Source: Chlorobiaceae bacterium (GTDB taxonomy: Bacteria; Bacteroidota; Chlorobiia; Chlorobiales; Chlorobiaceae). Taken from it: a stretch of 64,000 nucleotides of DNA. Shown here piece by piece: positions 15,995 through 53,336 of this stretch. The translations under genes and the position numbers were made by a program. The stretch spans positions 1-64,000 of the forward strand of contig JAAXXY010000011.1 of assembly GCA_013334225.1 (NCBI GenBank), written 5' to 3'. Under the pieces are notes generated by a model. It saw nothing but the letters and a program-made list of their open reading frames with translations. It searched no databases and had not been told where the DNA came from. Position 1 is the first letter of the stretch. Every line of letters begins with the position of its first letter.

Positions 15995-16162
15995 TTATCA
16001 CTCCGGCAGAAATAAGCCGCAAATAAATTCTGAAGACGGATTCTTCGCTTCGCCATCCATGAACAACTACTGCTTTCAGTATATTCACTGACCAAATTTT
16101 ACTGATTTATTGTTCATGTTCCGTGTGCGGAAGCGGCCGGATACGGGGAACTCAGAATGACA
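15995..16162 (-). repeat. copy of the TTATTRCTCCGG dispersed element (truncated, carrying the extra module)
   Basis: Read on the minus strand this copy shows TGTCATTCTGAG, then a segment of about 105 bases that is also present inside the 37-kb copy (CATGAACAACAAATCAGT-like, ...TTTTGGTCAGTGAATAT), then GAAGAATCC and a terminus resembling CTTATTTCTGCCGGAGTGATAA. The central hairpin and the half between GGATTCTTC and the terminal repeat seen in other copies are missing. It lies downstream of the TPR gene and explains the similarity between the track ORFs at 15790 and 37235. Confidence 0.75.
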
Positions 16163-16238
16163 GGAACAAGGAGTTTGTTCAGAAAAAAGTTGATACTCTT
16201 GATCACCGGATTAATAAACTGATGCAGTCCCGGGACTC

Positions 16239-26671: not shown

Positions 26672-26875
26672 TTATTGCTCCGGTGATTAAAACTGTCAAT
26701 CCCGGTCAGCAACAATAGTTCCAATTTTGTCGTTCCGAGGCCGATGCAGTCGGCCGAAGAATCCATAAATTATTGTATAGTAATAAAATGGATTCTTCAT
26801 TCCGCTACGCTTCATTGCGGAATGACAACCCCGTTGCGTGGATTTCCCTGCGACTTATCGTGGCCGGAGTAATAA
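26672..26875 (+). mobile_element. MITE-like element with TTATTRCTCCGG inverted ends (reference copy)
   Basis: About 204 bases beginning TTATTGCTCCGG and ending GGCCGGAGTAATAA, so the termini are imperfect inverted repeats. The centre contains GAAGAATCCAT and ATGGATTCTTC flanking a short AT-rich loop, a second potential hairpin. Near-identical copies occur at 37113 and, inverted, at 41894; partial ones at 15995 and 53254. No transposase is encoded. It explains the MDSSFRYASLRND peptide that recurs in the ORF track. Confidence 0.85.
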
Positions 26876-37032: not shown

Positions 37033-37112
37033 GTTGGCAATTATCCGTAAATGGTTCTTTATAAAAGTTATGAACCTGATCGGTTCTTGTGAATATCCTT
37101 GTCGGAAGTTCT

Positions 37113-37403
37113 TGTTACTCCTGCTATTAAAACTTTCAATTCTGGTTGGAAACAATAGCTCATATTTTGTCATTCTGAGCCCCCTGTATCCGGCCGCTAC
37201 CGCACACGGACCATGAACAACAAATCAGTGAATTTTGGTCAGTGAATATGCTGAAAGCAGTACTTGTTCATGGAAAGCAAAGCGAAGAATCCATAAATTA
37301 TTGAATAATAATAAAATGGATTCTTCATTCCGCTACGCTTCATTACGGAATGACAGACCAGATGCATGTATTTCCTTGCGACTTATTATTGCCAGATCAA
37401 TAA
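37113..37403 (+). mobile_element. MITE-like element with an inserted ~105-bp module
   Basis: Same ends and centre as the 26.7-kb copy (starts TTGTTACTCCTGC, ends GCCAGATCAATAA; central AATGGATTCTTCATTCCGCT). Between TCATTCTGAG and GAAGAATCC it carries about 105 extra bases (TCCGGCCGCTACCGCACACG...) that are also found in the truncated copy at 16 kb. It lies right upstream of the thioredoxin-TPR gene. Confidence 0.82.
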
Positions 37404-41893: not shown

Positions 41894-42087
41894 TTATTGC
41901 TCCGGCAACAATAAGTTGCAAGAAAATCTATGCAACGGGGCTGTCATTCCGCTATGAAGCGTAGCGGAATGAAGAATCCATTTTATTACTATTCTATAAT
42001 TTATGGATTCTTCGCATTGCTCAGAATGACAAAATCGGAGTTATTGTTGCTAACCAGGATTGGCAGTTTTAATTGCCGCAGTAATAA
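41894..42087 (-). mobile_element. MITE-like element, inverted copy
   Basis: On the minus strand it reads TTATTACTGCGGCAATTAAAA ... GCCGGAGCAATAA, matching the 26.7-kb copy almost throughout, with the central ATGGATTCTTCATTCCGCT. About 194 bases, no coding capacity of its own. Confidence 0.85.
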
Positions 42088-45199: not shown

Positions 45200-45667
45200 A
45201 GCTTATGAGGTCTGATTTGTTTTGGGGGGAATGGAGCTCCTACATAATATGGCGCCCTTTACTTAACCTTATCATAGTAACTTTTTTTCCGAAGCAATAA
45301 AAGTTCGGAGCATAACGAAGGTGACCTGTCTACGTTTAACCGGGCAATTGTTTTTGGATAATTTCCGTTTTTACGTCTGTCATCACAGCAACACTCTCTG
45401 CCCATAAACGATTCGCAAAATCGATGATTTTATAACCTTTCTTTATCTAATGGAGTTTTTCAAACGTCTTGTTACAAATCTGAAACAAAACGAATAAAAA
45501 ATCATTACATGATTCATTGACCAGGATCGGTCAGGAAACCCAATTACAGTGTAACACACTTCGAGGGGCCGGCTGACATAATGTTACATTATGCAACAAG
45601 TTATGTGCATCGAGAAGAAAGTCGATTTTTCTAATCTTCGAGACATTCCATTATTTTTTTTACATTG
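45200..45667. other. intergenic region between the nuclease gene and the C25 peptidase gene
   Basis: 468 bases, AT-rich, without ORF track entries of value. It contains the promoter of the peptidase gene and a perfect palindrome at 45577. A stretch of about 34 codons open on the minus strand (KGYKIIDFANRLW...) is seen but not assignable. Confidence 0.4.
45577..45593. promoter_or_regulatory. palindrome of unknown role
   Basis: CATAATGT-T-ACATTATG, a perfect 8-1-8 inverted repeat located 75 bases downstream of the nuclease stop codon and about 380 bases upstream of the peptidase start. It resembles an operator more than a terminator because it has no T run. Confidence 0.35.
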
Positions 45668-53253: not shown

Positions 53254-53336
53254 TATTACTCCAGCGATTTAATGTATTATACGTTTTAGCGCATATTGTC
53301 ATTCTGAGGCCGATGCAGTCGGATGAAGAATCCATC
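53254..53336 (+). repeat. truncated copy of the TTATTRCTCCGG element
   Basis: TTATTACTCCAGCGATTTAAT ... TTGTCATTCTGAGGCCGATGCAGTCGG-ATGAAGAATCCAT matches the left half of the 26.7-kb copy and then stops just at the central hairpin. The remainder is absent, and the convergent cation transporter gene begins 12 bases on. Confidence 0.75.

Follow-up and report, generated by a model that had tools for sequence, protein, structure and literature searches.

MITE-like elements of a Chlorobiaceae genome and the same ends around different palindromes in other phyla

Copies in the window and their anatomy

The window, i.e. the whole 64-kb stretch of DNA analyzed here, holds four copies of a short element with inverted ends and a fragment of another. 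The ends TTATTRCTCCGG...CCGGAGYAATAA are both present in four of the five copies (15995-16217, 26672-26875, 37112-37403 and 41894-42087). The copies and their parts are as follows.

15995..16217, minus strand: copy with both ends and a divergent interior, 223 bp; long REP variant with the CATGAACAA...TTGTTCATG palindrome
26672..26875, plus strand: reference copy, both ends intact, 204 bp
26672..26687, plus strand: left end TTATTGCTCCGGTGAT, RATTAAA type (sequence, end alignment)
26728..26765, plus strand: first REP-like palindrome of the reference copy, TGTCGTTCCGAG...GAAGAATCCA (sequence, alignment)
26789..26827, minus strand: second REP-like palindrome of the reference copy, head to head with the first (sequence, alignment)
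26860..26875, minus strand: right end GTGGCCGGAGTAATAA, AACAATAA type (sequence, end alignment)
37112..37403, plus strand: copy with a nested third palindrome, 292 bp; clean empty site in the relative G045
37212..37272, plus strand: nested third palindrome CATGAACAAC...GTACTTGTTCATG within the first REP of the 37112 copy (sequence, alignment)
41894..42087, minus strand: copy with both ends, 194 bp
53253..~53338, plus strand: left-end fragment with one REP, without the right end

The elements display the structural features of MITEs: they are shorter than 500 bp, have inverted ends and, as the first-pass annotation held, carry no coding capacity. Allowing up to one mismatch, 8 occurrences of the end motif TTATTRCTCCGG were counted in the window where 0.56 would be expected, and none of 100 shuffles reaches 8. 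A lone motif with one mismatch and no partner at 45289-45300 is probably a chance occurrence.

The first-pass annotation described a MITE-like family of at least five copies sharing termini, a central hairpin and much of their sequence. The family is real, as its ends are in excess in the window and coincide in a multiple alignment of about 40 copies. Four copies have both ends, but the one at 53254 is the left-end fragment; the copy listed at 37113 begins one base earlier, at 37112, its first letters being TTGTTACTCCTG. The GAAGAATCCAT/ATGGATTCTTC hairpin is found in 26672, 37112 and 41894, with one half in 53254 and none in 15995. By blastn, 26672-26875 matches 41894-42087 over its full length (83%), and 37112-37403 is alignable to the reference copy except for an 88-bp insert, but 15995-16217 shares only the ends and outer parts with the family and has a different interior. 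The nested REP-like interior pair and the ends in other phyla had been missed.

In the alignment of 38 elements from which the anatomy was taken, the outermost 13 bases are common to both ends; beyond them one end shows RATTAAA and the other AACAATAA. The two versions are asymmetric, TTATTRCTCCGGC being followed either by AACAAWA or by RATTAAA. The interior consists of a pair of palindromes placed head to head, with a TGTC tag and a GAATCCA tail and a spacing of about 23 bp in the reference copy. Several copies are longer, with a third palindrome, CATGAACAA...TTGTTCATG, nested in the first REP. Subfamilies are distinguished by the stretch from the end to the REP. Elements without a REP also occur, of 114 bp in genome G074 and 97 bp in G045. 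The 97-bp element apparently lies at the same locus as the C39 fragment of the window genome (G000).

The nested palindrome (window 37212-37272 and approximately 16068-16147) gives matches of about 72-89% in many genomes of the genus Chlorobium, including several without the element by a search with the 204-bp copy (e.g. G005, G013, G022). Possibly it forms a repeat family of its own.

Distribution, empty sites and target

The window genome consists of 3.05 Mb in 101 contigs. A genome-wide blastn search gave 44 scored matches, from 40 of 82 loose candidates; end motifs number 104 in the genome, where the reversed control gives 21. In selected genome stretches a profile search located 80 merged places, counting fragments; a filter for both ends kept 42, among which 53254 is a false positive caused by a spurious right end. 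The density is 5 in 64 kb in the window versus about 1 per 30-40 kb in the genome, and an unselected 200-kb sample holds 1-2 elements. The hundreds of copies that the first-pass annotation thought possible are not supported. The copies are intergenic. Matches within the window genome are mostly 80-89% identical, and the copies are presumably old and decayed.

That the family is a repeated conserved RNA or a transcription terminator is very improbable. The predicted folding is strong (z -4.2 to -6.6) and the position intergenic, as such a role would have it; a stable predicted fold is, however, expected of any palindrome. The covariation term is 0.15, with change on both sides in 3 of 24 pairs, Rfam gives no match on the window, and the element is missing at orthologous sites. 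The neighboring genes are convergent at 9 copies, divergent at 10 and tandem at 22 (simple ORF caller), about as at random, which speaks against a terminator. With no coding capacity, no Rfam family and almost no covariation, the element does not belong to any longer RNA or gene, and with empty orthologous sites besides, the MITE reading of the first-pass annotation survives this check.

The empty sites come from genome G045, which shares about 89-95% identity with the window along extended stretches. In this comparison of close relatives the element is either wholly there or wholly missing at orthologous sites, which is compatible with both gain and precise loss. Clean empty sites in G045 are found at the 37112 locus, C27:32363, C21:60559 and C84:131342, where TCAT, TTCA, TTAA and GTAT, respectively, replace the element; only two of the four are within one base of TTAA. 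The 15995 locus is also empty in G045 with a poor junction alignment, and junctions are poorly aligned at C28:65476, C13:717 and C13:11690. Copies common to both genomes are found at C17:9551, C40:22007 and C54:599, and one copy is apparently common also to G050 and G074, judged from flank strings alone.

The target-site duplications for which the first-pass annotation had proposed an alignment were not found outside the ends: direct repeats there do not exceed chance (about 1000 length/offset combinations, best z 3.6). The flanks show a weak symmetric preference, TA/TTA...TAA/TA (slashes at the element borders). The outermost element bases are TTA and TAA, thus the empty sites fit either of two modes of insertion: into TTAA, with no more than TA duplicated, or between TT and AA, with nothing duplicated. 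The data are compatible with both; a TA duplication would lie inside TTA/TAA. A TTAA/TA target would suit an IS630/mariner-type enzyme.

At L007 1501-1704 (G000:C30:31812-32015) a copy replaces about 190 bp of the G045 locus, apparently inside a gene. Either the insertion came with a deletion or the locus was rearranged later.

Ends, REPs and other palindromic repeats (GCCCCGACAGGGGC, CTCCGGAG and CCCCGGGG types) are chained in islands at L060 1400-2174 (G000:C40), L078 200-900 (G000:C67) and L225. The left flank GCGATATATTGGT is common to five element copies. Against the MITE reading, recombination in repeat islands, where some copies are chained, may have spread them. Several fragments are indeed chained with other palindromic repeats and the left flank recurs at five places, but most complete copies end precisely and lie between flanks that are unrelated on either side, and spread by recombination between islands in place of transposition is improbable.

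The same ends in other phyla

Scanning GTDB r220 for the right end TTGTTGCCGGAGYAATAA gave at least 112 stretches, where by our estimate about 15 chance matches are expected; many are chance matches in genes, and a large part have a second end 63-290 bp away. A pair of ends with its interior is called a frame here. The groups found are as follows.

Chlorobaculum sp. 24CR and W9 MAGs: frames of 141 bp
Syntrophales and other Deltaproteobacteria MAGs: frames of 101-150 bp
Nitrospirae SKS1.bin124 and DBS2-1.bin90: frames of 130-132 bp
One Oscillospiraceae MAG: frame of 63 bp

Outside the window genome the ends are exact over 13-15 bases, and the AACAAWA/RATTAAA asymmetry is kept across phyla. Exact TTATTRCTCCGGCRA is found 2-20 times in each of 12 such genomes and the reversed control 0 times. 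Binning of MAGs may misplace contigs; several MAGs per group and a named Chlorobaculum strain agree, and the Oscillospiraceae occurrence, a single MAG, is the weakest case.

The cargo differs between groups. In Chlorobaculum it is GGGCTAAAGCCC plus CCCCGGACTGAAGTCCGGGG. Syntrophales frames hold classical CGTC-type pairs, CGTCATTCCCGCGAAAGCGGGAATCCA with TGTCATGCCGGACTTGATCCGGCATCCA, but one Syntrophaceae frame holds a different palindrome, GTAGAGACGTTGCATGCAACGTCTCTAC, and some Syntrophales frames of 102-106 bp are without a REP. The new finding is of the same ends around different cargo in Chlorobaculum, Syntrophales, Nitrospirota and one Oscillospiraceae MAG, i.e. unrelated interiors bounded by the same ends in at least three phyla, plus a fourth in one MAG.

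Within Chlorobaculum sp. 24CR, copies that lie in unrelated flanks reach 99.3% identity, which indicates that the element was probably active there recently. Plasmids and phages searched with the 204-bp copy gave no match, and none of five IMG/VR matches to the right end shows a second end at element distance.

All REP units of the window lie inside frames (8 of 8; the eighth, with TGTCGTTCC, was read from sequence). In Syntrophaceae G082, 200 kb taken without selection contain strict CGTC REPs of which 0 of 10 are framed, which rules out frames as carriers of all CGTC REPs. Since REP pairs occur outside frames, the frame is not a general vehicle of REPs. The window-genome cargo shows the TGTC tag, AT stem start, CCA tail and head-to-head pairs of CGTC REPs, but a strict scan (8-9 bp stem, 4-5 nt loop) finds 0 in the window. 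The Syntrophales cargo has the tag, the 8-9 bp stem, the 4-5 nt loop and the CCA tail, with 30 strict units in frames. The Syntrophales REP core also matches Neisseria and Azospirillum records.

Mobility and comparison with known systems

The first-pass annotation had proposed a search for a transposase with matching ends. Neither such a gene nor an autonomous element turned up in the stretches examined of the window genome and about 15 other genomes. Six Y1 transposase genes are present in the window genome and the element flanks none of them, as it would in a RAYT/REPIN system. Genes adjoining lone ends look like housekeeping genes, by eye.

The candidate partners were rejected. The long end pairs at L251/L243 and L383 are neighboring small elements, and L326 is a frame of roughly 290 bp with a fourth palindrome and a second, separate end. 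At L305 an IS of 1788 bp, bounded by ends of its own, sits inside a Chlorobaculum frame. The frame, from Chlorobaculum sp. 24CR, is interrupted at L305 2466-4253 (reverse strand) with GAATTA on both sides, an apparent duplication, and the IS encodes a 500-aa transposase-like protein (family judged by eye).

Alternatively, mobility could reside in the REP pair, with an HUH (Y1, RAYT-like) enzyme acting on it and the TTATTRCTCCGG palindrome serving only as a preferred landing site or an older frame. REP pairs are known outside frames, some frames of 97-114 bp are without a REP, and the window genome does have Y1 genes; REP pairs nested in longer palindromes are on record from Anabaena variabilis and Halothiobacillus neapolitanus (PMC3733652). 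But at empty sites the frame and the REP are missing together, no Y1 gene is flanked, and frames are equally well kept in lineages with non-REP cargo. CGTC REPs are moreover reported to lack a dedicated transposase, their mode of spread being open since their description (PMC3733652). This reading is unlikely. With its frame spanning phyla, the family described here adds to the known cases of REP nesting in a palindrome.

By structure and empty sites this is a MITE family. The copies are probably non-autonomous transposable elements (MITEs) with two asymmetric versions of one end signal, moved in trans, and we read the whole as a cross-phylum family whose interior holds exchangeable palindromes. 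A transposase recognizing the ends would act in trans, inserting the element at TTAA and duplicating the 2 bp TA, or placing it between TT and AA with no duplication. The interior would be dispensable for recognition, with REP-type palindromes taken up repeatedly. Copies would decay after insertion, appearing old in the window genome and recent (up to 99%) in Chlorobaculum sp. 24CR.

It is conceivable, and put forward tentatively, that one transposition signal of about 20 bp at both ends, near letter-for-letter the same in Chlorobiota, Desulfobacterota, Nitrospirota and perhaps Bacillota, marks a general carrier in which host-common palindromes are exchanged and which is moved by a widely spread enzyme. 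If true, such a carrier would be one route by which orphan CGTC REPs travel from site to site and possibly between genomes. Descriptions of short bacterial repeats usually concern one genome at a time; the ends found here surround different palindromes in at least three phyla. The cross-phylum ends offer a handle for finding the enzyme and a testable link between MITEs and orphan CGTC REPs. No description of the end sequences or the REP sequence was found in the open-licence literature searched.

Among bacterial MITEs (reviewed in PMC10969869), Chunjie of Geobacter uraniireducens is 178-235 bp in 38 copies. The present element resembles these in size, terminal inverted repeats, non-coding and intergenic character, tens of copies and internal size variation. 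Unlike them (Chunjie compared by description only), it is without direct repeats outside the ends, has a REP-type pair in its interior, and its ends are asymmetric beyond 13 bp and common to several phyla. With TIRtrons, TIRYTs and solitary TIR repeats (PMC3733652) it shares inverted repeats multiplied independently of a transposase gene. However, TIRtron and TIRYT repeats flank tyrosine transposase genes (PMC3733652), and here 0 of 6 Y1 genes are so flanked. As in CGTC REP families (PMC3733652), there is a TGTC/CGTC tag, an AT stem start, a CCA tail and pairing head to head. The Syntrophales cargo fits CGTC-1 exactly (PMC3733652), whereas the window-genome cargo differs from CGTC REPs in its longer loops, interrupted stems and place inside a frame. 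The layout also resembles that of GTAG-15 of Anabaena variabilis and CGTC-1 of Halothiobacillus neapolitanus (PMC3733652), where a head-to-head REP pair also lies in a longer recurring inverted repeat. Those frames have other sequences and were each reported from a single species (PMC3733652), whereas the present frame spans phyla, holds several kinds of palindrome and also occurs without a REP.
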